This document shows positions 1 to 9,181 of a stretch of 9,181 nt of DNA, piece by piece. This stretch comes from Solirubrobacteraceae bacterium (GTDB taxonomy: Bacteria > Actinomycetota > Thermoleophilia > Solirubrobacterales > Solirubrobacteraceae): NCBI GenBank assembly GCA_025935735.1, contig JAICUS010000212.1:1-9181 (forward strand). Reading direction: 5' to 3'. The notes beneath the pieces were generated by a model that made no database searches, had not been told where the DNA came from, and saw nothing but the letters and a program-made list of their open reading frames with translations. Positions within the stretch are counted from its first letter, which is position 1. Every line of letters starts with the position of its first letter. A program made the position numbers and the translations under genes.

Positions 1-474
1 CTGGATCTGAACCTGCACGGCGAGTCCGGCCTGGACGCCATCCCGCGGTTGCGCGAGACGTGCCCGGACACGGCGATCGTCGTGCTGACCATGCAGGACG
101 ACCCCGGCTTCGCCCGCCAGGCGCTGCAGTCCGGCGCGCTCGGGTTCGTGCTCAAGGAGGCGGCCGACGAGGAGCTGCTGCAGGCCATCCACCTGGCCGC
201 GGGCGGCGAGAACTACCTCAACCCGCGGCTCGGCGCCCGGCTGGCCGCCGCGCCGGCCGAGCCGGCCGGCCCGCCGGACGATCTAACCGCCCGCGAGGTG
301 GAGATCCTGCGGCTGATCGCGCTCGGCCACACCAACACCGAGATCGCGCAGCAGCTGTTCCTCTCCACCCGCACGGTGGAGACGCACCGGGCGCACATCC
401 AGCAGAAGACCCGCCGCAGCACGCGGGCGGAGCTGGTCCGCTACGCGCTCGAGCACGGGCTGGTGGACGTCTAA
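1..474 (+). CDS. NarL/LuxR-family response regulator, 5'-truncated by window edge
   Basis: DNA-binding response regulator that would be phosphorylated by a HisKA_3 histidine kinase and act as a transcription factor. The frame is open from base 1, so the start lies upstream; 157 residues are visible, against roughly 210-220 for a whole NarL-type protein. The window opens with LDLNLHGESG, and the Asp at visible residue 2 (bases 4-6) is the expected phosphoacceptor. The switch Thr is in VVLTM (residue 30) and the conserved Lys in FVLKEA (residue 52). A Pro/Ala-rich linker (about 82-94) leads to a LuxR/GerE helix-turn-helix (about 95-157) beginning LTAREVEILRLIALG, with recognition helix STRTVETHRAHIQQKT. 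The TTG at 49 lies inside the receiver domain and is not a start. This is the only response regulator in the window, so it is a candidate partner for the kinases at 5232-8109, about 4.7 kb away with an opposing gene between. That pairing is inference. Confidence 0.93.
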   Translation: MDLNLHGESGLDAIPRLRETCPDTAIVVLTMQDDPGFARQALQSGALGFVLKEAADEELLQAIHLAAGGENYLNPRLGARLAAAPAEPAGPPDDLTAREVEILRLIALGHTNTEIAQQLFLSTRTVETHRAHIQQKTRRSTRAELVRYALEHGLVDV

Positions 475-1592
475 AGCGGGGGGGTCCGCGGGGGGGCGGA
501 GCCCCCCCGGTGGATCTCCGCGGCCGTCTGGCGGGCCATCTCCAGCTCCTCGTCGGTTCCGACGACGAGCACGGCGACTTGCGCCCCCGGCGGCGAGATC
601 GTGACCTCGTGCGCGGCGTTGCGCGCCGGGTCGACGGCGATGCCCAGCCGCTCCAGGCCGGCGAGCGAGCGCGCGCGCACCTCGGCGTCGTGCTCGCCCA
701 CGCCGCCGGTGAACACGATCGCGTGCGCGCCGCCCAGCGCGGCCAGGTACGCGCCGACGTATTTCCGGATGCGGTAGCAGTAGACCGCCAGCGCCTGCGC
801 GGCGCCGGCGTCGCCGGCCGCGACCCGCCGGTGCACCTCGCGCAGGTCGGCGGCGCCGGCCAGCGCGCGCAGGCCGCTCGCGCTGTTGAGCGCCCGCTCG
901 ATCTCGTCGACGGCCATGCCCTTCGTACGGTGCAGGTGCGGCACGAGCGCCGGGTCGAGGTCGCCGCCGCGCGTGCCCATCACCAGCCCCTCCAGCGGCG
1001 TCATCCCCATCGAGGTGTCCACGCTGCGCCCGCCGGCGATCGCCGCCGCGCTCGCGCCGTTGCCCAGGTGCAGGACGATCAGGTCCGTCTCCTCGAGGTT
1101 GCGGCCCAGGTGCTCCGCCGCGGCGCGCGAGACGAACGCGTAGGAGAGGCCGTGGAAGCCATAGCGGCGCACGCCCCACTCGCGGGGCACGGCGTAGGTG
1201 TGGGCGTGTGCCGGCAGCGTGCGGTGGAACGCGGTGTCGAACAGCGCCACATGCGGCACGCCGGGCAGCGCGCGCCGGGCCAGCTCGATCCCGGTCACGC
1301 CGGCCGGGTTGTGCAGCGGCGCCAGCTCCGACAGCGCCCGCAGCTCGTCCAGCACGCCGTCGTCCACCACCACCGGCGCCCGGAAGCGGTCACCGCCGTG
1401 CACCACGCGGTGCGCGACCGCCACGACGTCGTCGAGCGGGCAGGCACCGAGCGCCTCCGCCACCGCCGCCCCGTGGTCCCCGGACACGTCCTCGATCACG
1501 CCGCCGCCCACCGCCCGCTCGGCGGCCACGTCGACCAGCCGGTACTTCAGCGACGAGGAGCCGGCGTTGAGGACGAAGACGCGCCGCCCCAT
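471..1592 (-). CDS. ackA: Acetate kinase
   Basis: Cytoplasmic enzyme interconverting acetyl phosphate + ADP and acetate + ATP, giving substrate-level ATP when respiration is limited. The 373 residues carry the family signatures in order: VFVLNAGSSSLKY (6-17), HRVVHGG (61-67) with the substrate-site Arg, FDTAFH (118-123) with the catalytic Asp119, YGFHGLSYAFVSR (144-156), HLGNGAS (175-181), GTRGGDLDP (206-214) with the transition-state Arg208, FTGGVGEH (294-301) and GTDEELEMAR (345-354). The protein is somewhat shorter than the usual roughly 400 residues. The ATG at 1592 places the N-terminal signature in the usual position; no clear Shine-Dalgarno precedes it. The last dozen residues (GGSAPPRTPPL) are encoded by the GC hairpin, and the stop interlocks with the response regulator's stop, so this tail is probably an unconserved read-through. 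No phosphotransacetylase or phosphoketolase gene is visible to supply acetyl phosphate. Family assignment is secure; a role in hypoxic metabolism is inferred from context. Confidence 0.97.
   Translation of the reverse strand: MGRRVFVLNAGSSSLKYRLVDVAAERAVGGGVIEDVSGDHGAAVAEALGACPLDDVVAVAHRVVHGGDRFRAPVVVDDGVLDELRALSELAPLHNPAGVTGIELARRALPGVPHVALFDTAFHRTLPAHAHTYAVPREWGVRRYGFHGLSYAFVSRAAAEHLGRNLEETDLIVLHLGNGASAAAIAGGRSVDTSMGMTPLEGLVMGTRGGDLDPALVPHLHRTKGMAVDEIERALNSASGLRALAGAADLREVHRRVAAGDAGAAQALAVYCYRIRKYVGAYLAALGGAHAIVFTGGVGEHDAEVRARSLAGLERLGIAVDPARNAAHEVTISPPGAQVAVLVVGTDEELEMARQTAAEIHRGGSAPPRTPPL
489..509. terminator. GC-rich hairpin between convergent genes, possible bidirectional terminator
   Basis: An 8-bp perfect stem (CGGGGGGG at 489-496 with CCCCCCCG at 502-509) closes a 5-nt loop. 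A second G7 run at 478-484 could pair with the same C tract as an alternative stem. It lies just after the response-regulator stop and inside the last codons of ackA. Neither side has a proper T tract, so it is at best a non-canonical terminator of the kind often seen between convergent genes in high-GC actinobacteria. Confidence 0.5.
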
Positions 1593-1600
1593 CGCCGCCG

Positions 1601-1606
1601 AGCATA
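1601..1606 (-). promoter_or_regulatory. Candidate -10 element for ackA
   Basis: On the minus strand this reads TATGCT, matching the TANNNT consensus, and ends 8 nt before the ackA ATG. Initiation about 7 nt downstream would give a nearly leaderless mRNA, consistent with the lack of a Shine-Dalgarno. No convincing -35 is seen at 16-18 nt spacing. Its first bases belong to the degenerate half copy of the intergenic palindrome. Confidence 0.35.
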
Positions 1607-1616
1607 AAGGGGTCAG
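1604..1616. repeat. Half copy of the intergenic palindrome
   Basis: The bases TAAAGGGGTCAG (1605-1616) match the left arm and centre of the complete palindromes at 1636 and 1667. The right arm is missing and is replaced by GC-rich sequence containing AGTCGCC twice (1615-1621 and 1625-1631). It looks like a decayed or truncated third unit. Confidence 0.65.
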
Positions 1617-1635
1617 TCGCCGTGAGTCGCCCCGG

Positions 1636-1697
1636 CTAAAGGGGTCTGACCCCTTTAGGTGTGCGGCTAAAGGGGTCAGACCCCTTTAGGTTTGCGG
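1636..1697. repeat. Tandem pair of 31-nt palindromic units (REP-like)
   Basis: Two 31-nt units (1636-1666 and 1667-1697) match at 29 of 31 positions. Each starts with a perfect 23-nt palindrome (1636-1658 and 1667-1689): arms CTAAAGGGGTC and GACCCCTTTAG around one central base, T in the first and A in the second. An 8-nt tail follows (GTGTGCGG, then GTTTGCGG). The pair sits between the divergent ackA and FAD-oxidoreductase genes and outside both. Palindromes with a GGGGTC-N-GACCCC core are, from memory, dispersed in many bacterial genomes as REP-type elements, so a REP/BIME-like origin mobilised by a RAYT transposase elsewhere is the leading reading. A 31-bp spacing is also close to three helical turns, so a paired operator is an alternative. 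Confidence 0.85.
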
Positions 1698-1753
1698 GAA
1701 AGCCGCAGGTGGCTCCCCGGGGTTCTCCGGATGGCCGTGGAGCTGGGCCGACG

Positions 1754-1759
1754 TAGGTT
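1754..1759 (+). promoter_or_regulatory. Candidate -10 of a leaderless promoter for the oxidoreductase operon
   Basis: TAGGTT fits TANNNT and lies 6 nt upstream of the ATG at 1766, the spacing typical of leaderless actinobacterial transcripts that start at the A of ATG. No purine-rich Shine-Dalgarno precedes this ATG, which favours the leaderless reading. No good -35 is visible. A short CCCCGGGG palindrome at 1715-1722 upstream is too short to call an operator. Confidence 0.45.
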
Positions 1760-1765
1760 GGCGCC

Positions 1766-2911
1766 ATGCCCGATCCGACCCAGCTGCTGATCGCCGGCGG
1801 CGGCCCTGCGGCCCTGGAGGCCGCGCTGGCCGTCCAGCGCCTGGCGGGCGAGCGCGTCCGGGTGACGGTGCTCAGCAACCGCGGAGAGCTCGTGTACCGG
1901 CCGTTCGCGGTCGCGGAGCCGTTCGGGCTCGGCGAGCCGCAGCGCTTCTCCCTGGACGCCCTGGCCGCCGAGCGCGGCTTGGCGCTGCACCGCGGGCGCC
2001 TGCGGGCCGTCGACGCGGACGGGCACCGGGCGCTGATGGAGGACGGCGAGCTGGTCTACGACGCGCTGCTGCTCGCGCTCGGCGCCCGCGCCGAGGAGGC
2101 GGTCCCGGGCGCGCTGACCTTCCGCGGCCCCGAGGACGTCGCCCCGCTGCGCGCCGCGCTGCACCGCCTGCACTCCGGCGAGCCGCTGCGCGTGGCGTTC
2201 GTCGTGCCGCCGCACACGGGCTGGAGCCTGCCCGCCTACGAGCTGGCGCTGCTGACCGCCCGCTGGGCCGCCGACGCCGGGCTGGCGCTGGAGCCGTGGC
2301 TGGTCACGCCCGAGGCGCAGCCGCTGGGCGTGTTCGGCGCCGAGGCGTCGGCCGCGGTGGCCGCGCTGCTGAAGGAGGCCAAGGTGCGCCTGTGGACCGG
2401 CGCGTTCGCCGAGGCGATGGAGGACGGCCGGCTGTGGCTGACGCTCGAGGGCGGGCTGCCAGCCGACCTGGCCGTGGCGCTGCCGCGCCTGACCGGCCCG
2501 GCCCTGCCCGGCGTGCCGACGGACCGCCACGGCTTCGTGCCGGTCGACGGCCACGGCCGCGTCCCCGGCGTCGCCGACGTCTACGCCGCGGGCGACGTCA
2601 CCACGCGCCCGCTCAAGCAGGGCGGGCTGGCCTGCCAGCAGGCCGACGTCGCCGCGGCGGCGATCGCCGTCGCGGCAGGCCGCCGGTCGGGCGCGCCCGC
2701 AGAGGCTCTCGCCCCCGAGGCCTACCGCCCCGTCCTGCGCGCGATGCTGCTCACCGGCGGGCAGCCGCTCTACCTGCGCCGCGCCGCCGGCGGGACGTCG
2801 GGCGCGAGCGAGGAGGCGCCCTGGTGGCCGCCGCACAAGATCGCCGGCCGCGAGCTGTCGCCCTACCTCGAGGCGCACCCCGAGCTGCGGCTCGAGCCGG
2901 CCACGGCATGA
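1766..2911 (+). CDS. SQR/NDH-2-like FAD-dependent oxidoreductase, first of a tandem pair
   Basis: Flavoprotein of the pyridine nucleotide-disulfide oxidoreductase fold, 381 residues. The N-terminal FAD Rossmann motif is LLIAGGGPAALEAAL (7-21), with a family-typical YRPF segment at 44-47. The second FAD contact is VYAAGDVTTRPLKQGG (272-287), followed by a CQQAD helix. The C-terminus has PLYLRR (334-339) and WWPPHKIAGRELSPYL (353-368), shared with the next gene. The second Rossmann segment reads FVVPPHTGWSLPAYELALL (145-163) in place of a GxGxxG loop. This recalls the SQR/flavocytochrome c sulfide dehydrogenase branch, which does not use NAD(P)H. The only Cys is residue 290, so the two redox cysteines of SQR are absent. 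No transmembrane segment or signal peptide is evident. The start is supported by immediate entry into the FAD motif. It is first in a six-gene run, with ATGA overlap to its paralog. The electron donor and acceptor cannot be told from sequence. Confidence 0.9.
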   Translation: MPDPTQLLIAGGGPAALEAALAVQRLAGERVRVTVLSNRGELVYRPFAVAEPFGLGEPQRFSLDALAAERGLALHRGRLRAVDADGHRALMEDGELVYDALLLALGARAEEAVPGALTFRGPEDVAPLRAALHRLHSGEPLRVAFVVPPHTGWSLPAYELALLTARWAADAGLALEPWLVTPEAQPLGVFGAEASAAVAALLKEAKVRLWTGAFAEAMEDGRLWLTLEGGLPADLAVALPRLTGPALPGVPTDRHGFVPVDGHGRVPGVADVYAAGDVTTRPLKQGGLACQQADVAAAAIAVAAGRRSGAPAEALAPEAYRPVLRAMLLTGGQPLYLRRAAGGTSGASEEAPWWPPHKIAGRELSPYLEAHPELRLEPATA

Positions 2912-4116
2912 CGCGCCGGCCGCTGCAGGTCCTGATCGCCGGCGGCGGCGTGGCCGGCGTGGAGGCCGCGCTGCGCCTGCACGCGCTGGCCGGCGACCGC
3001 GTGCGGATCGAGCTGCTCAGCCCGCGCGCCGACCTGGTCGACCGCCCGCTGCTGGTGCGCGAGCCGTTCGACGGCACGTTCGCGCCGCGGCTGCCGCTCG
3101 CCCGCCTCGCCGCGCGGGACATCCGCGTGCGCGAGGACGCGCTGGAGTCGGTCGAGGCCGCGCGCGGCCGGGTGCTGACGCGCTCGGGCGCGCGGGTCGG
3201 CTATGACCGGCTGCTGGTGGCCACGGGCGCGCCGCTCACGGTCGCGGTGCCGGGCGCGCTGGCCTTCGGCGGCCCGACCGGCGGCGGGCGCTTCGAGCGG
3301 GTCCTGCGCCGGCTGCGCGACGCGGGCGCCGGCCGGCTCGCGCTCGTCGTCCCGCCCGGCCCGGGCTGGTCGCTGCCGCTCTACGAGCTCGCGCTGCTCG
3401 CCGCGCCGCGGCTGCCGGGCGTGGAGGTCCTGGTGGTCACGCCGGAGGCGCGCCCGCTGGCCACGTTCGGCGCGGCCGCCGCGGACGCCGTCGCCGACGT
3501 GCTGGCCGCGGCCGGCGTGCGCGTGCGCACCGGAGCCGTGGCGACCGCCGCGGTGGACGGCGCGCTGGAGCTGGCGGACGGGACCCGCGAGCCGGCCGAC
3601 GCCGTCGTCGCCGGCCCGGCCGTGACCGGCCCGGTCGTGCCCGGCCTGCCCGCCGACATGGACGGCTTCGTCGTGGTCGACCGCCACGGCGCGGTCCCCG
3701 GCTGCCCCGGCGTCTACGCCGCCGGCGACGTGACCGCCGGCCCGATCAAGCAGGGCGGCCTGGCCGCCCAGCAGGCCGACGCCGCCGCCACGGCGATCGC
3801 CGCCGCGGCGGGCGCGCCGGTGCCGCCCGCGCCCGAGGCGTGCACGCTGCGCGCCGTGTTGCTCACCGGCGCTGGGGGTGCCCGACCGGCGGACGCTGCC
3901 GGCGGGCGGCGCGGCGACACGTCGCCGGTCGGGTGGGCCCCCGAGGGCTCTCCGCTCTACTTGCGGGCCGAGCTCGTCCAGGGCAGACCCCGCAACAGCG
4001 TCGCGTCCCGCGAGCCGCTGTGGTGGCCGCCGGTGAAGCTGGCCGCGCACCACCTCGCCTCGTTCCTGGTGTCCGGCGGCGAGTCGCACGAGCCGCTGGT
4101 CGACCGTGCGCGCTGA
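2908..4116 (+). CDS. SQR/NDH-2-like FAD-dependent oxidoreductase, second paralog
   Basis: Paralog of the preceding gene, 402 residues, starting at the ATG that overlaps its stop (ATGA, 2908-2911). An upstream continuation of the same frame exists but lies over the first paralog and is not coding. Motifs match the paralog: VLIAGGGVAGVEAAL (8-22), DRPLLVREPF (45-54), LVVPPGPGWSLPLYELALL (146-164) in place of a NAD(P)H loop, VYAAGDVTAGPIKQGG (269-284) and LWWPPVKLAAHHLASFL (371-387). Its cysteines are 266 and 311 only, with no CxxC or SQR-type pair. The clearest difference is residues 322-348, absent from the first paralog, where only two residues separate LLTG from PLYL; the extra DNA is an inverted repeat. 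Two adjacent, divergent copies suggest tandem duplication and perhaps a heterodimer. The oxidoreductase fold is secure; substrate and partner are unknown. Confidence 0.9.
   Translation: MTRRPLQVLIAGGGVAGVEAALRLHALAGDRVRIELLSPRADLVDRPLLVREPFDGTFAPRLPLARLAARDIRVREDALESVEAARGRVLTRSGARVGYDRLLVATGAPLTVAVPGALAFGGPTGGGRFERVLRRLRDAGAGRLALVVPPGPGWSLPLYELALLAAPRLPGVEVLVVTPEARPLATFGAAAADAVADVLAAAGVRVRTGAVATAAVDGALELADGTREPADAVVAGPAVTGPVVPGLPADMDGFVVVDRHGAVPGCPGVYAAGDVTAGPIKQGGLAAQQADAAATAIAAAAGAPVPPAPEACTLRAVLLTGAGGARPADAAGGRRGDTSPVGWAPEGSPLYLRAELVQGRPRNSVASREPLWWPPVKLAAHHLASFLVSGGESHEPLVDRAR
3874..3942. repeat. Imperfect inverted repeat inside an in-frame insertion in the second flavoprotein
   Basis: The arms CCCGACCGGCG (3881-3891) and CGCCGGTCGGG (3923-3933) are exact reverse complements, flanked outside by GGGGG (3874-3878) and CCCCC (3938-3942). 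A smaller stem, GGCGA/TCGCC (3913-3917 and 3922-3926), lies partly in the loop. The structure falls in codons 322-348, which have no counterpart in the upstream paralog. The net gain is 25 codons (75 nt), so the frame is kept. The encoded stretch is Gly/Ala/Arg/Pro-rich, as expected of a surface loop. Confidence 0.7.
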
Positions 4117-4132
4117 CGGGGTAGAGAATCCC

Positions 4133-4140
4133 GGGAGAGG
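4133..4140 (+). promoter_or_regulatory. Ribosome binding site for the SufR-like gene
   Basis: GGGAGAGG ends 3 nt before the ATG at 4144, a short spacing. It is the only clear Shine-Dalgarno in the six-gene run. The preceding 27-nt gap also contains TAGAGAAT (4122-4129), a possible -10, so an internal promoter upstream of the regulator is conceivable but weakly supported. Confidence 0.6.
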
Positions 4141-4143
4141 CGC

Positions 4144-4797
4144 ATGGACCTCCCGCCCACCGCACAGCCCGACGTGCTCGCGCTGCCGCTGCGCGCCGAG
4201 CTCTTCCACGTGCTCGCCGAGCTGCGCCGGCCGGCCACCACGCAGCAGCTCGCCGCCCGCGTCGGCCGCCACCCGAACACCGTGCGGGTCCAGCTCGGGC
4301 GCCTCGCCGCCGCCGGCCTGGTCGAGCGCCGCGTGCTGCGCCAGCCGCGCGGCCGGCCGCGGGACGAGTGGACGGTGGCGCCCGGCGCCGCCCCGGGCGG
4401 GCGGCCGCCCGAGGCCTACGGGCAGCTCAGCCGCTGGCTGGCCCGGGCGATGAAGAGCCGCGGCGACCTGCCGGCGATCGAGGCGACCGGCCGGGAGATC
4501 GGCGCCGAGCTCGTCGCGGACGGGGACGGCCGCCCACTGCCCGAGAGCCTCCATGACGCCCTCGCCGCGCTCGGCTTCGCTCCCAGCGCCGAGCAGCGCC
4601 GCCACGGCCGGCTGCGCTTCGTGCTGCGCAACTGCCCCTATCGTGAGGCCGTGCCGCAGAACCCGCCCGCCATCTGCACGCTGCACCGCGGGATCACCCG
4701 CGGGATGCTCGACCGGCTCGGCCCGCAGGCCACGCTCACCGGCTTCGTGGCCCGCGATCCCTACCTCGCGGGCTGCGAGATCGAGCTCCAGCCATGA
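4144..4797 (+). CDS. SufR-like winged-helix transcriptional regulator with probable Fe-S cysteines
   Basis: DNA-binding regulator of 217 residues. An N-terminal winged helix-turn-helix (about 12-76) includes AELFHVLAELRRPATTQQLAARVGR followed by NTVRVQLGRLAAAGLVERR and a basic wing (RQPRGRPRDEW). The middle is helical (about 90-150). The C-terminal part holds the only three cysteines: C164 in RNCPYREAV, C178 in PAICTLHRG and C211 in LAGCEIEL, spaced C-X13-C-X32-C. SufR-family repressors bind an Fe-S cluster through a similar C-X12-C-(about 27)-C arrangement with CP(Y/F) and C-x-x-H context. This one fits that family and could sense O2, NO or Fe-S status, though cluster binding is inferred. 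The start is set by the GGGAGAGG site. No suf genes are visible, so its target may instead be this operon. Its stop overlaps the hemerythrin start (ATGA). A generic ArsR/DeoR-type regulator is the alternative. Confidence 0.82.
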   Translation: MDLPPTAQPDVLALPLRAELFHVLAELRRPATTQQLAARVGRHPNTVRVQLGRLAAAGLVERRVLRQPRGRPRDEWTVAPGAAPGGRPPEAYGQLSRWLARAMKSRGDLPAIEATGREIGAELVADGDGRPLPESLHDALAALGFAPSAEQRRHGRLRFVLRNCPYREAVPQNPPAICTLHRGITRGMLDRLGPQATLTGFVARDPYLAGCEIELQP

Positions 4798-5231
4798 AGC
4801 GCAGCGCCGCCCTCACCCCGCTCTCGCGCGACCACCATCACGGGCTGATGGCCGCGCTCAAGCTCACGCGCGCGAAGGAGGCAGACGCCGCGGCGGCCGC
4901 CGCCGGCTTCCTCGAGTTCTGGCACGCCGAGGGCCGCCGCCACTTCCAGATCGAGGAGGACCTGCTGCTGCCCGGCTTCGCCCGCCACGGCCCGGCCGAC
5001 CACCCCGCGGTGGTGCGCGCGCTGGTCGAGCACGTCGACCTGCGCCGCCGCGCGCAGGACGTGGAGCGCGGCGGCGCGCCGCTCGCGGCGCTGAACGAGC
5101 TGGGGCGCCGCCTGTCGGCCCACATCCGCGAAGAGGAGAACGGGCTCTTCACCCTGGTCGAGGAGACCCTGCCGGCCGACGAGCTGGCCGCGCTCGGGCA
5201 GGCGATCGAGGCCGCCGAGCACGCCCCGTAG
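4794..5231 (+). CDS. Hemerythrin HHE-domain protein
   Basis: Small soluble four-helix-bundle protein of 145 residues, expected to hold a non-heme di-iron site for O2 or NO binding, sensing or iron handling. Candidate ligands occur in the order expected for hemerythrin-like domains: a His cluster in SRDHHHGLM (14-16), H50 and E54 in RRHFQIEEDLLLP, H80 in LVEHVDLR, and H110 and E114 in AHIREEENGLF. The C-terminal segment LVEETLPADELAALGQAIE (121-139) is typical of bacterial HHE-domain proteins. There is no membrane segment and no extra domain. The ATG overlaps the upstream regulator's stop, and the next gene begins directly after this stop, so translational coupling on both sides is likely. Family assignment is strong; the physiological ligand is unknown, and NO or O2 is favoured only by the neighbours. 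Confidence 0.92.
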   Translation: MKRSAALTPLSRDHHHGLMAALKLTRAKEADAAAAAAGFLEFWHAEGRRHFQIEEDLLLPGFARHGPADHPAVVRALVEHVDLRRRAQDVERGGAPLAALNELGRRLSAHIREEENGLFTLVEETLPADELAALGQAIEAAEHAP

Positions 5232-6470
5232 ATGTCCGCGCCCGCCCGCCGTCCGCCCGCGGAGCTGCTCGTGCGCCGGCTGCCCGAGCGCCGCGCGGTC
5301 GTGCTCGTGGCCGCCGCGGCGATGCTCGTGGCGATCTTCGCGGCGATGCGCCAGGTCGACGACCCGGCGCCCGGCATCGGCGTGCTCGCCGTGCTGCCGA
5401 TCACGCTGATCGCGCTCGAGCTCGGCCTCGCCGGCGGGCTGGCCGCCGCCGCGCTCTCGGCCGGACTGCTGGCGCTCAACGCCGCCGGCGGCCACCCGGA
5501 GCTGGGCGCCACCGGCGTCGCCACCCGCACGCTCGTCTTCCTGGCCGTCGGGCTCGTGGCCGGCCGGTTCAGCGACCGCATGCGCGACGCCTTCGGGCGC
5601 GAGCAGCGGCTGCTGGACTCGGGGCTCGACCTGGCCGGCGGAATCCGCGCCGACCACGTGGCCGCGATCGTCGCGCGGGCCGCCGCCCGCACGCCGGGCG
5701 TGCGCGGCGCACGGGTCGTGCTCGCCGGCGCCGAGCCCGCCGAGGCCGGCGCGTCCGGACACCACCGCGCGACGCTGCCGATCGCCGCGCGCGGCACGGC
5801 GCTGGGCGAGCTCGAGGTGAGCGCCGATCGCGCCCTGGCCCGGGAGGAGCGGGCCGCGCTCGAGCTGCTGGCGCTGCAGGCCGGGCTGGCCGTCGACAGC
5901 CAGCGGCTGCTGGCGCGCGAGCGCGAGTTCGTCCGCGCCCAGGAGGACGAGCGCCGGCGCGTGGCCGACCGCCTGCACGACGAGCTGGCACAGGTGCTCA
6001 CCGCGGTGCTGATGGGCCTGCGCGTGGTCTCGCGCGACGCGGCCGACCGCGCGGCGGTGGAGGACCTGCGGGCGCAGGTCGTGGAGGTCCTGCGCGAGCT
6101 GCGCGAGGTCGCGGGCTCGCTGCGCCCGGTGGCGCTCGACCAGCTCGGCCTGCGGCCCGCGCTGGAGACCCTGGCCGCCGGCGGGCGGCTCTCGCTCGAC
6201 CTCGAGGACGACGACCACGCCACCGGGCCGCTCGACCCGGCCGTCGAGACCTCGCTGTTCCGGATCGTGCAGGAGGCGCTCGCCGGCTCGCCGGACGGCG
6301 TGCGCGTGGGGCTCTCGGGCACCCCGGGCGAGGTCACCCTCGACCTGCGCCTGCCGGCCGGGACCGCCGTGCTGCCCGCCATCCAGGCCCGCGCCGAGGT
6401 CGCCGGCGGGCGCGTCGAGGCCACCGAGGACGCCGGCGCCCTGCGCGTGCGCGTGGCGCTGCCGCGCTGA
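5232..6470 (+). CDS. Membrane HisKA_3 histidine kinase with decayed ATP-binding domain
   Basis: Two-component sensor of 412 residues. About four hydrophobic segments (22-38, 47-66, 67-84, 93-111) form an N-terminal membrane module. A short GAF-like region follows (about 125-225), then a coiled linker. The HisKA_3 dimerisation domain is DERRRVADRLHDELAQVL (239-256), phosphoacceptor His249, with the typical SLRPVALDQLGLRPALE segment (296-312). The ATPase domain starts normally (DPAVETSLFRIVQEAL, 335-350) but then lacks the N-box Asn/Lys-His (AGSPDGVRVGL follows), the D-x-G-x-G box (DLRLPAG instead) and the G-x-G-L-x-G-M box (VLPAIQARA instead). It therefore probably cannot bind ATP normally while still offering a His. 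The frame is intact, so this is divergence rather than a frameshift. It starts directly after the hemerythrin stop and ends 1 nt before the next kinase. It may act as a phosphorylation partner or pseudokinase for that kinase (inference). Confidence 0.88.
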   Translation: MSAPARRPPAELLVRRLPERRAVVLVAAAAMLVAIFAAMRQVDDPAPGIGVLAVLPITLIALELGLAGGLAAAALSAGLLALNAAGGHPELGATGVATRTLVFLAVGLVAGRFSDRMRDAFGREQRLLDSGLDLAGGIRADHVAAIVARAAARTPGVRGARVVLAGAEPAEAGASGHHRATLPIAARGTALGELEVSADRALAREERAALELLALQAGLAVDSQRLLAREREFVRAQEDERRRVADRLHDELAQVLTAVLMGLRVVSRDAADRAAVEDLRAQVVEVLRELREVAGSLRPVALDQLGLRPALETLAAGGRLSLDLEDDDHATGPLDPAVETSLFRIVQEALAGSPDGVRVGLSGTPGEVTLDLRLPAGTAVLPAIQARAEVAGGRVEATEDAGALRVRVALPR

Positions 6471-6471
6471 C

Positions 6472-8109
6472 ATGGAGGACGAGGCCCTGACCACCTTGAT
6501 CGCGCTCGGGCGCCGCGTGCTCGCCGAGGCCGACCTCGAGGCCGTGCTCGAGCGCGTGCTCGACGTCGGCCGCGAGCTGACCGGCGCGCGCTACGCCGCG
6601 CTCGGCGTGCTCAACCCGCAGCGCGACGCGCTCGAGCGCTTCATCACCCGCGGCCTCGACCCGGACCAGGAGCGCGCCGCGGGCGCCCCGCCGCACGGCC
6701 GCGGCGTGCTGGGCGAGCTGATCGCCGACCCGCGCCCGCTGCGGCTGCGCGAGGTGGCCGAGCACCCGCGCTCCTACGGCTTCCCCGCCGGCCACCCGCC
6801 GATGCACTCGTTCCTGGGCGTGCCGATCGTGGTCGACGGCGCGGCCTGGGGCAACCTCTACCTGACCGACAAGGCGGGCGGCGAGTTCAGCGCCGAGGAC
6901 GAGCAGGCGGTGGAGATGCTCGCCGGCTGGGCGGCGATCGCGATCGCCAACGCGCGCCGGCTCGCCGAGGTCCGCCGCCGCCGCGACGAGCGCGAGCGGA
7001 CCGTCGCCGCCCTGCGGGCCACCGTCGACATCTCGCGCGCGCTGGCGGGCGAGCCGGACCTCGACGTCGTCCTGCGGCTGATCGCCGAGCGCGGCCGCGC
7101 GCTGGTGGGCGCGCGCACGCTGGCCATCGAGCTCACGTCCGGCGGCCGCGTGCAGATCGCCGCGGCGGCCGGCGAGATCGACCCCGGCATCCTCGGCAGC
7201 GAGGTGTCGCTGGACGGCACCGTGGCCGGCCGCGTGCTGGAGACCGGGCGCGCCGAGCGGCTGAGCGACGAGCGCAACGCGGCGCGCTTCCGCGAGCGCG
7301 GCCTCGGCGGCCTGGGGATGCCGGCCCGCGCCGGGCTGTTCGTCCCGCTGCGGTTTCGCAACGAGACGCCGGGCGTGCTGGTGGCGCTCGACCCCGAGCA
7401 GGGCGGCGACTTCACCGACGCCGACGAGCGGCTGCTCGGCTCCTTCGCCACCAGCGCCGCCAGCGCGGTGGTGACCGCCCGCTCGGTCACCCGCGAGTCC
7501 ATGCGCGCGCGCGAGGCGGCGGCCGAGGACGAGCGCCGCCGCTGGGCGCGCGAGCTGCACGACGAGACGCTGCAGGGCCTCGGCGCGCTGAGGATGGCGC
7601 TGTCGCTGGCCCGCCGCGTGCCCGACCCGGCCGCGGCGCTCGACGACGCGCTGGCCGAGCTGGACACCGAGATCGCCAACCTGCGCGGGATCATCTCCGA
7701 CGTCCGCCCGGCCGCGCTGGACCAGCTCGGGCTGCCCGCCGCGCTCGACGCGCTGGCGCACCGGATGGGCCATCGCGGCATCGCCGTGGACCTGCGGATC
7801 GACCTCCCCACCCGTCCGGGCGAGGAGGTCGAGACGGCGGTCTACCGGATCGTGCAGGAGGGGATCAGCAACGCGATCAAGCACTCCGGCGCCGAGGCCG
7901 TGGCCGTCCGCGTGAGCGCGGACGACGGCGAGATCGTGGCCAGCGTCCACGACGAGGGCCGCGGCTTCGACGTCGCGATCCCGGCCGCCGGGTTCGGGCT
8001 GACCGGGATGCGCGAGCGGACCGAGGCCCTCGAGGGGACGCTGACGCTTCAGTCGGCGCCCGGGGCGGGCACCACGCTCACCGTCAGGCTGCCTTCCCGG
8101 CCGCGGTGA
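6472..8109 (+). CDS. DevS/DosT-like GAF-GAF histidine kinase, probable heme sensor
   Basis: Soluble sensor kinase of 545 residues with GAF1 (about 22-163), GAF2 (about 182-338), HisKA_3 (about 345-425) and HATPase_c (about 450-542). GAF1 resembles the heme-binding GAF-A of mycobacterial DevS/DosT: GRGVLGELIADPRPLRL, then GFPAGHPPMHSFLGVPI, then GNLYLTDKAGGEFS. His108 in HPPM aligns with the DevS heme ligand His149 and Tyr130 in NLYLTDK with distal Tyr171; the spacing is 22 in both (DevS recalled from memory). Gly45 sits where DevS has Glu87 and DosT has Gly85. The catalytic half is complete: His363 in ARELHDETLQ, N-box Asn467 in SNAIKHSG, HDEGRGFD (493-500) and GFGLTGMRER (507-516). O2, NO or CO sensing with phosphorelay to a NarL-type regulator is likely. 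It is last in the operon, and its 3' end overlaps the convergent nirK-like gene by 26 nt. Heme binding is inferred. Confidence 0.92.
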   Translation: MEDEALTTLIALGRRVLAEADLEAVLERVLDVGRELTGARYAALGVLNPQRDALERFITRGLDPDQERAAGAPPHGRGVLGELIADPRPLRLREVAEHPRSYGFPAGHPPMHSFLGVPIVVDGAAWGNLYLTDKAGGEFSAEDEQAVEMLAGWAAIAIANARRLAEVRRRRDERERTVAALRATVDISRALAGEPDLDVVLRLIAERGRALVGARTLAIELTSGGRVQIAAAAGEIDPGILGSEVSLDGTVAGRVLETGRAERLSDERNAARFRERGLGGLGMPARAGLFVPLRFRNETPGVLVALDPEQGGDFTDADERLLGSFATSAASAVVTARSVTRESMRAREAAAEDERRRWARELHDETLQGLGALRMALSLARRVPDPAAALDDALAELDTEIANLRGIISDVRPAALDQLGLPAALDALAHRMGHRGIAVDLRIDLPTRPGEEVETAVYRIVQEGISNAIKHSGAEAVAVRVSADDGEIVASVHDEGRGFDVAIPAAGFGLTGMRERTEALEGTLTLQSAPGAGTTLTVRLPSRPR

Positions 8110-9181
8110 ACGCGCCCGCGGCGCCCTTCATCATCCCCGCGAAGGAGTGGTCGACGAAGGGGTAGGCGCCCGGCGCGTCGAGGCTGAACTCGACCCAGCC
8201 GCCCTGGGAGGGGGCGAGGTTGACCGTCTGGGAGTCGTGCCCGGTCTGGCCCTCGATCACGGTGCGGTCGAACACGGTGCCGATGATGTGGAAGGCCGAC
8301 CACAGCGACGGCCCGGCGTTGAGGACGTACAGGCGGACCGTCTCGCCGACGCCGACCTTGATCGGGGCCTTCTTGTACTGGTCGGCGTAGCCGTTGAACG
8401 CGACCACGCTCGGCTGCATCGCCTCCATCTTGCCCAGGTCGGCGGGCTTGCCCGGGGCGCCGATGTAGTACTCCTGCTGGGTCATCCAGTACTCGTGGTC
8501 GACCTTGGGCAGGTTGCGCGGCTTGACGATCATCGCGCCCACCATGCCGGCGCCGGTGTGCATGAGCACCGGGTCGGTCGCGCAGTGGTACATGAACACG
8601 CCCGGGTGCTTGGCCACGAAGCTGAACGTCTTCGTCTGGCCCGGCCCGATCGTCGTGTAGTCCGCGCTCGGCGCGACCTCGGCCGAGTGGAAGTCGATCG
8701 AGTGCGGATAGTCGACCTTGAACGACTTGCCGCTCTGGTTGACCAGGTCGATCTGCACCTTGTCGCCGACGTCGACGACCATCGGGGTGGAGACGCCGGT
8801 GCCGCGGTGGGCGACGCCGTTGACCGCGTAGGACCACACCTTGGTCGGCGGCTGGTCGTCGGACACCCGGGTGACGTGCTCATAGACCTGCATGCGGAAC
8901 TTCTTCACCGGGCCGGCGGGGACGGCGGGCAGCGCCGGATTCGGGCGCGCGTAGGCCTCGACCGCCGGGTCGGCGGCGCTGGAGCCGCCCATGTCCATCC
9001 CGGCCATGTCCCCCATGCCCGTGCCGGCGCCGGCCGCGGCCGGCGCGACGTCGTGGCGGCCGGTCAGCAGCACGATCGCGATGATCAGCGCGCCGGCGAT
9101 GGCGAGGGCGCCGAGCGTGAGCCCGAGCAGGCGGTCGGCGCCGCGCTCGGAGCGGTCGGCGACGCGGGCCTCCAGGCGGTC
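8084..9181 (-). CDS. nirK: Membrane-anchored copper nitrite reductase (NirK/AniA type), 5' end outside window
   Basis: Two-cupredoxin-domain copper enzyme expected to reduce nitrite to nitric oxide outside the cytoplasm. The minus-strand frame is open to the right edge; the GTG at 9073 is internal, because 36 upstream codons encode a charged stretch (DRLEARVADRSERGADR) and a hydrophobic anchor (LLGLTLGALAIAGALIIAIV). The true start is therefore upstream. A Met-rich linker (GMGDMAGMDMGG) follows the anchor. Numbered from the GTG, type 1 copper ligands are H124, C164, H172 and M177 (PHSIDFH; YHCATDPVLMHTGAGM). Type 2 ligands are H129, H163, H262 (FHIIG) and H309 (FVDHSFAGMMKGAAGAF). The proton-transfer Asp127 is present, and H262 with Ile264 matches the catalytic His-x-Ile. 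The C-to-H spacing resembles Neisseria AniA. No laccase-type HxH pairs are seen. The gene is convergent with the GAF kinase, overlapping its 3' end by 26 nt, and its promoter is outside the window. Confidence 0.9.
   Translation of the reverse strand, partial: DRLEARVADRSERGADRLLGLTLGALAIAGALIIAIVLLTGRHDVAPAAAGAGTGMGDMAGMDMGGSSAADPAVEAYARPNPALPAVPAGPVKKFRMQVYEHVTRVSDDQPPTKVWSYAVNGVAHRGTGVSTPMVVDVGDKVQIDLVNQSGKSFKVDYPHSIDFHSAEVAPSADYTTIGPGQTKTFSFVAKHPGVFMYHCATDPVLMHTGAGMVGAMIVKPRNLPKVDHEYWMTQQEYYIGAPGKPADLGKMEAMQPSVVAFNGYADQYKKAPIKVGVGETVRLYVLNAGPSLWSAFHIIGTVFDRTVIEGQTGHDSQTVNLAPSQGGWVEFSLDAPGAYPFVDHSFAGMMKGAAGAFTAAGKAA

Follow-up and report, generated by a model that had tools for sequence, protein, structure and literature searches.

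The question raised by the 9,181-nucleotide stretch analysed here (contig JAICUS010000212.1 of a soil-type Solirubrobacteraceae bacterium; the whole stretch is called the window below) is what a histidine kinase homologue without recognisable ATP-binding motifs could do directly upstream of a DosS-like heme kinase. Our answer is tentative and held with less than even confidence: the window may be a gas/redox-response locus of a Solirubrobacterales type, in which the DosS-like kinase (GAFHK) is opposed by a phosphatase, the HisKA_3 pseudokinase psHK, on a NarL-type response regulator. Two HisKA_3 proteins were found, and the earlier note on this DNA treated the kinases as active, which does not hold for the one encoded at 5232-6470, where no recognisable ATP-binding motif is present. 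The three proteins of the proposed circuit are encoded as follows:

5232..6470, + strand: psHK, HisKA_3 pseudokinase; DHp domain with H249, D250 and Q254, predicted CA fold without ATP motifs
6472..8109, + strand: GAFHK, GAF-GAF-HisKA_3-HATPase kinase, DevS/DosS-like; heme His108, distal Tyr130, HATPase_c 2.7e-15
1..474, + strand: NarL/FixJ-type response regulator, C-terminal part; Pfam Response_reg 1.1e-11, GerE 3.3e-18, start outside the window

psHK is composed of N-terminal helices (residues 17-135, membrane-type by eye), a short-form GAF domain (about 139-225), a DHp domain and a CA fold. In the DHp domain, H249 is accompanied by D250 (+1 acidic) and Q254 (+5 Gln), which make up the HisKA_3 (E/D)xxxQ phosphatase motif. 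The acidic residue and the Gln were kept in 95/95 full-length rows of the psHK family, and the N-box or G1 pattern (N..[KR]H or D[DEN]G.G) was found in 0/95 of the same rows, while 8/8 control kinases carried the N-box Asn and the G1 residues. The phospho-acceptor His has been lost several times within the family. With a CA domain devoid of N-box, G1 and G2, psHK is by its residues a histidine pseudokinase, predicted to be unable to use ATP. It gave no HATPase match in Pfam, which would also be expected of a decaying pseudogene. We consider this extremely improbable: the frame is open, the CA fold is predicted, residues outside the ATP site are conserved, and the aligned members among the 168 homologues found share the loss of ATP motifs, a conservation that already speaks against decay.

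NarX needs the DxxxQ pair for its phosphatase action, and the Gln of DesK sits so as to position the catalytic water, according to excerpts of PMC3510030 and PMC5231405. psHK resembles these HisKA_3 sensor phosphatases in its +1 acidic and +5 Gln residues and its DHp-CA fold, but the absence of ATP-binding motifs means that a kinase half is not expected of it, and its family has lost the His in several lineages. A phosphatase fits psHK better than a phosphotransfer protein does, because the DxxxQ pair is kept while ATP binding, and sometimes the His, is lost. We therefore read psHK as a putative phosphatase-type brake.

In the proposed mechanism, GAFHK would phosphorylate the NarL-type regulator according to O2, nitric oxide (NO) or CO. 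psHK, encoded just upstream in a probable operon and presumably unable to use ATP, would dephosphorylate the same regulator through (E/D)xxxQ, with its own membrane and short-GAF sensor in control. In this way it would set a threshold and reset the signals of GAFHK, and perhaps those of acetyl phosphate, the AckA/Xfp metabolite. Redox input of the Fe-S, di-iron and flavin kinds would come from the SufR-like regulator, the hemerythrin and the flavoproteins. This proposal is drawn from sequence, namely from gene content, spacing, conserved residues and recurrent neighbourhoods; heme binding, partner choice, phosphatase activity and co-expression are what we infer. The operon is probably functional in a gas/redox response of which the general logic is known, and what was not expected is a pseudokinase family that has retained its phosphatase motif. 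It is doubtful, but conceivable, that psHK stands for naturally occurring HisKA_3 sensors that act as phosphatases only, without ATP binding and in some lineages without the His, a family whose dedicated role is to keep NarL-type regulators switched off, counteracting both a heme gas kinase and the acetyl phosphate of adjacent Xfp/AckA; no description of such a family was found in the literature searched. If this is true, the kinase and phosphatase roles that one sensor usually combines are divided in one operon between two proteins with separate inputs, which would allow a direct test of whether phosphatase control alone carries a signal, and a test of the means by which bacteria protect their regulators from acetyl phosphate.

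The neighbours of psHK were compared in ten stretches. A scan of genome contigs gave five psHK loci, all of them distant, and the closest relatives (P0002-P0008) lay outside the context view. One stretch (L227, 6360-12095) encodes in order a response regulator (66%), the phosphoketolase Xfp (Pfam XFP), psHK (34%), AckA and a flavin adenine dinucleotide (FAD) protein. In the psHK of L227 Arg replaces the His, and its gene sits between those of two acetyl-phosphate enzymes, beside a regulator of the window's type. Another stretch (L004) contains hemerythrin and SufR-like genes as well as an amine-oxidoreductase-type gene; two (L005 and L230) contain uroporphyrinogen decarboxylase and ferrochelatase genes; and radical SAM genes were seen in L003 and, named by eye, in L230. 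In L001, L002, L229 and L231 none of the window's other families was seen beside psHK. The enzyme genes near psHK in L003, L004, L005 and L230 hint at a heme-related role, and because the neighbours vary across the ten stretches, psHK has no exclusive tie to GAFHK.

Several points weigh against the phosphatase brake on a GAFHK-driven regulator. The family is rare: psHK was found in 9/232 genomes of one order (that of genome G003; E 1e-40) and in 5/399 genomes of the class, all five already among the order matches (7 and 4 candidates, respectively, were scored for each genome in the first-pass scans, so undercounts are possible). It occurred in 0/40 GAFHK stretches, and of the ten psHK stretches, some of them short, only L228 holds GAFHK, 11 kb away and with FAD genes beyond. 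The heme-biosynthesis neighbours may mean another psHK partner. Motif retention alone is no proof of a phosphatase, because active kinases keep the Gln too (43/43 GAFHK relatives) and the acidic residue has a part in autophosphorylation as well. The phosphatase activity of DrBphP needed ATP (excerpts of PMC8292422), which psHK should not bind, and phosphatase function appeared to be lost from an evolved ChrS pseudokinase whose CA domain is truncated and which may act through HrrS (excerpts of PMC9491836).

According to excerpts of PMC9491836, native ChrS makes heterodimers with HrrS, the ChrS pseudokinase is thought to promote HrrS phosphotransfer, and DivL works without an ATPase domain or phosphorylation residue. 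Together with the adjacent and closely spaced psHK and GAFHK genes, this is consistent with psHK as a non-enzymatic partner subunit, which would pair through its DHp domain with GAFHK or another kinase and tune its activity or its choice of regulator. We regard this as possible though on balance not probable, since a scaffold role would not require the acidic residue and the Gln to be kept in 95/95 rows while the His is lost repeatedly, and since GAFHK was not seen beside psHK in 9/10 stretches, some of them short. psHK would be like the DrBphP phosphatase, the evolved ChrS pseudokinase and DivL in using a histidine kinase fold without autokinase activity. However, DrBphP, a phytochrome, still uses ATP, and the evolved ChrS arose by a laboratory frameshift, whereas psHK belongs to a broad natural HisKA_3 family with membrane and short-GAF input. 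RocA is another of the kinase-dead histidine-kinase homologues.

The kinase side of the proposed phosphatase-kinase pair is more familiar. GAFHK matched the GAF-A structures of DosT and DosS (1.5e-35), and its His108 and Tyr130 are equivalent to DosS His149 and Tyr171, which are the proximal and distal residues of the GAF-A heme (excerpts of PMC4082495). Both residues were kept in 43/43 relatives (at least 43% identity and at least 75% coverage, among fetched loci, near-duplicates removed), and so were the catalytic His, Asp and Gln, the N-box Asn and the G1 Asp. GAFHK thus combines the heme His/Tyr residues of DosSR/DevSR sensors with an intact DHp and ATPase, and we infer a DosS-like heme kinase. 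It is common, being found in 106/232 genomes of the order (E 1e-90).

The earlier note had compared the locus to the mycobacterial DosR system, and this stood for the sensing, which looks DosS-like by its residues, and not for membership in the DosR regulon. The recognition helix of the regulator reads STRTVETH, and the best solved match was NarL. DosR contacts DNA by Lys179, Lys182 and Asn183, according to excerpts of PMC4082495. At these positions the regulator has Arg, Glu and Thr or Ser, in 25/25 relatives of at least 55% identity, in a register set by the TV shared with the DosR helix. The DosR/OsdR palindrome was searched for in the window only, where GGGACNNNNGTCCC at 1 mismatch and AGGGCCGATCGGCCCT at 3 mismatches both gave 0 sites. 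Neither the contact residues nor this search supports a DosR target set.

GAFHK is like the sensors of DosS/DosT-DosR (Mycobacterium) and OsdK-OsdR/DevSR (S. coelicolor) in being a GAF-GAF-HisKA_3 kinase with heme His/Tyr, paired with a NarL-type regulator. Unlike in these systems, the window regulator has no equivalents of Lys179/Lys182/Asn183 and no DosR/OsdR box is present in the window, which adds the pseudokinase, NirK instead of Nar, and FAD oxidoreductases beside the kinase. Among the targets predicted for OsdR are nitrate reductase and, as in the window, a hemerythrin gene (excerpts of PMC5069765). No paper joining DosR with Thermoleophilia was found in the literature searched.

All gene families named by the earlier note were confirmed, with Pfam or NCBIfam matches for each of nine genes: a NarL-type regulator, ackA, two flavoproteins, a SufR-like regulator, a hemerythrin, two HisKA_3 proteins and a NirK-type protein. 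The window ends cut two of them, leaving the 3' part of the regulator gene and removing the 5' end of the NirK-type gene. The remaining features are:

471..1592, - strand: acetate kinase gene ackA, convergent with the regulator; PF00871 1.9e-121, TIGR00016 389 bits (cut-off 293)
1636..1689, no strand: two 23-nt perfect palindromes (1636-1658 and 1667-1689) in the divergent gap between ackA and FAD1
1766..2911, + strand: FAD1, NAD(P)/FAD-dependent oxidoreductase, first gene of the probable operon; Pyr_redox_2 2.8e-15
2908..4116, + strand: FAD2, flavoprotein of the FAD1 family; Pyr_redox_2 3.4e-22, ferredoxin-reductase and SQR-like structure matches
4144..4797, + strand: SufR-like helix-turn-helix regulator with C164, C178, H181 and C211; HTH_20 2e-7
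4794..5231, + strand: hemerythrin-like di-iron protein; PF01814 4.3e-12, 47 bits (cut-off 25)
8084..9181, - strand: NirK-type two-domain copper nitrite reductase; TIGR02376 1.8e-43, AniA-type structure 1.6e-46, 5' end outside the window

Six genes at 1766-8109, from FAD1 and FAD2 through the SufR-like, hemerythrin and psHK genes to GAFHK, form a same-strand run. Two junctions, FAD1/FAD2 and SufR-like/hemerythrin, are ATGA overlaps (the first depends on the FAD2 start codon, which was our choice), and the gaps are 0 bp for hemerythrin/psHK, 1 bp for psHK/GAFHK and 27 bp for FAD2/SufR-like; because of these overlaps and gaps the six genes probably share a single transcript as one operon.

Recurrence of the gene order in related genomes had been proposed as a check. 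The exact order of the window was found in none of the 232 genomes of the order, and sub-combinations did recur (L113, L115, L130, L227). Of these genomes, 76 gave a match for SufR-like (E 1e-15), 141 for FAD2 (E 1e-20) and 29 for NirK (E 1e-30). Neighbours were scored at E 1e-8 around the 20 best SufR-like places, around 40 of the 42 best GAFHK places (G225 and G226 were left out, being already in the NirK set as L113 and L115), and around all 20 places, in 18 genomes, with a NirK match below 1e-100; absences are soft because many contigs are short. The 40 GAFHK loci contained a response regulator in 22, FAD in 15, AckA in 4, Xfp in 4, SufR-like in 1, NirK in 1 (at a contig end), and psHK and hemerythrin in 0. 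The 20 SufR-like loci contained hemerythrin in 11, GAFHK in 5, a response regulator in 5 and psHK in 1.

A regulator of at least 50% identity stood near GAFHK in 21/40 loci against 0/35 control loci (NirK or SufR-like loci without GAFHK), and FAD in 15/40 against 2/35 (p 0.0017; both exceptions were NirK loci), in statistics that treat related genomes as independent. The DosS-like heme kinase of the earlier note thus does sit in a recurrent neighbourhood. The FAD oxidoreductases near DevS-like kinases (L189-L226) could be reductants of the sensor heme, which is a guess. By the same statistics, hemerythrin near SufR-like gave 11/20 against 0/58 (p 2e-8).

The richest parallels (L113, L115, L130 and L227) hold 4 or 5 of the 8 families, and none has the window order or all eight. 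L113 encodes Xfp (called from a 78% match to the Xfp of L227), AckA, FAD, GAFHK (50%), a response regulator (65%), FAD and NirK (64%); L115 encodes NirK (57%), two FAD proteins, a response regulator (71%) and GAFHK (51%), with SufR-like at the contig end; L130 encodes SufR-like, hemerythrin, GAFHK and a response regulator matched over 37 residues. A glycosyltransferase-like gene in L113 and USP and CBS genes in L130 were named by eye. These parallels and the tight spacing of the six genes speak against independent modules (regulator and ackA, the FAD pair, SufR-like and hemerythrin, the kinase pair, nirK) that are chance neighbours with no common circuit, which we consider rather unlikely. This alternative would account for the absence of the exact order from the searched genomes and for the modules lying apart in many of them, as in G157, where SufR-like and GAFHK are in one place and regulator-Xfp-psHK-AckA-FAD in another.

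The earlier note went further and suggested a local loop, in which the NO that NirK produces from nitrite would act as the signal for GAFHK. The nine type 1/type 2 copper or catalytic Asp/His positions of NirK were intact in 20/20 relatives, in a register set by alignment to AniA. The window protein is like AniA-type NirK in its cupredoxin domains, both copper sites and the catalytic Asp/His. However, its TIGR02376 score of 149 bits, for a protein cut by the window end, is below the equivalog cut-off of 296, so it is called NirK-type and not proven NirK, and it has a membrane-type N-terminal segment and a Met-rich linker by eye. S. coelicolor DevSR senses NO and feeds back on its formation, with control over nitrite formation as well (excerpts of PMC4766573). 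As a principle, the loop is therefore sound and, given this precedent, not new. L113 and L115 also unite NirK, FAD genes, a response regulator and GAFHK. But the kinase with regulator occurred in only 2/20 close NirK loci (FAD in 4, AckA in 1, SufR-like in 1), and 16/20, some on short contigs, had no FAD, response regulator, GAFHK, SufR-like, hemerythrin, psHK or AckA. nirK is moreover convergent and outside the operon, and the product is, by eye, probably exported. The specific loop is not supported by this comparison and is quite unlikely; that NirK is the NO source of the circuit is suggested weakly, by adjacency. The 3' end of the GAFHK gene overlaps nirK tail to tail by 26 bp (8084-8109).

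The five cofactor types proposed earlier (heme, di-iron, Fe-S, FAD and copper) were borne out as predictions by families and conserved ligand positions, and they are plausible because cofactor residues are kept among relatives. In SufR, a COG2345-type Fe-S regulator, three Cys serve the Fe-S cluster. The window regulator shares the helix-turn-helix and the Cys cluster: C164, C178, H181 and C211 were kept in 32/32 relatives, which supplies the three Cys. It differs from SufR in its Cys spacing (X13, X32), in its type occurring near hemerythrin in 11/20 loci, and in that no suf gene was among the families identified in the window. The hemerythrin neighbours (in the set L130-L149) were mostly without a kinase. 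The hemerythrin has the HHE domain and six core ligand positions, assigned by eye (H14, H50, E54, H80, H110 and E114), kept in 15/15 relatives; H15 was kept in 13/15 and H16 in 8/15.

The GC content of the window was 0.66-0.82 in 500-base windows, and no Rfam family or tRNA was found in it. A plasmid origin was rejected, as 5232-8109 had no near match in a plasmid collection. The 23-nt palindromes at 1636-1689 were rejected as a conserved operator, their 13-nt core being present in 1/149 loci compared. They are more likely a dispersed repeat, because the 19-nt palindrome pattern was found in 9/232 genomes of the order, with 28 sites in one genome.

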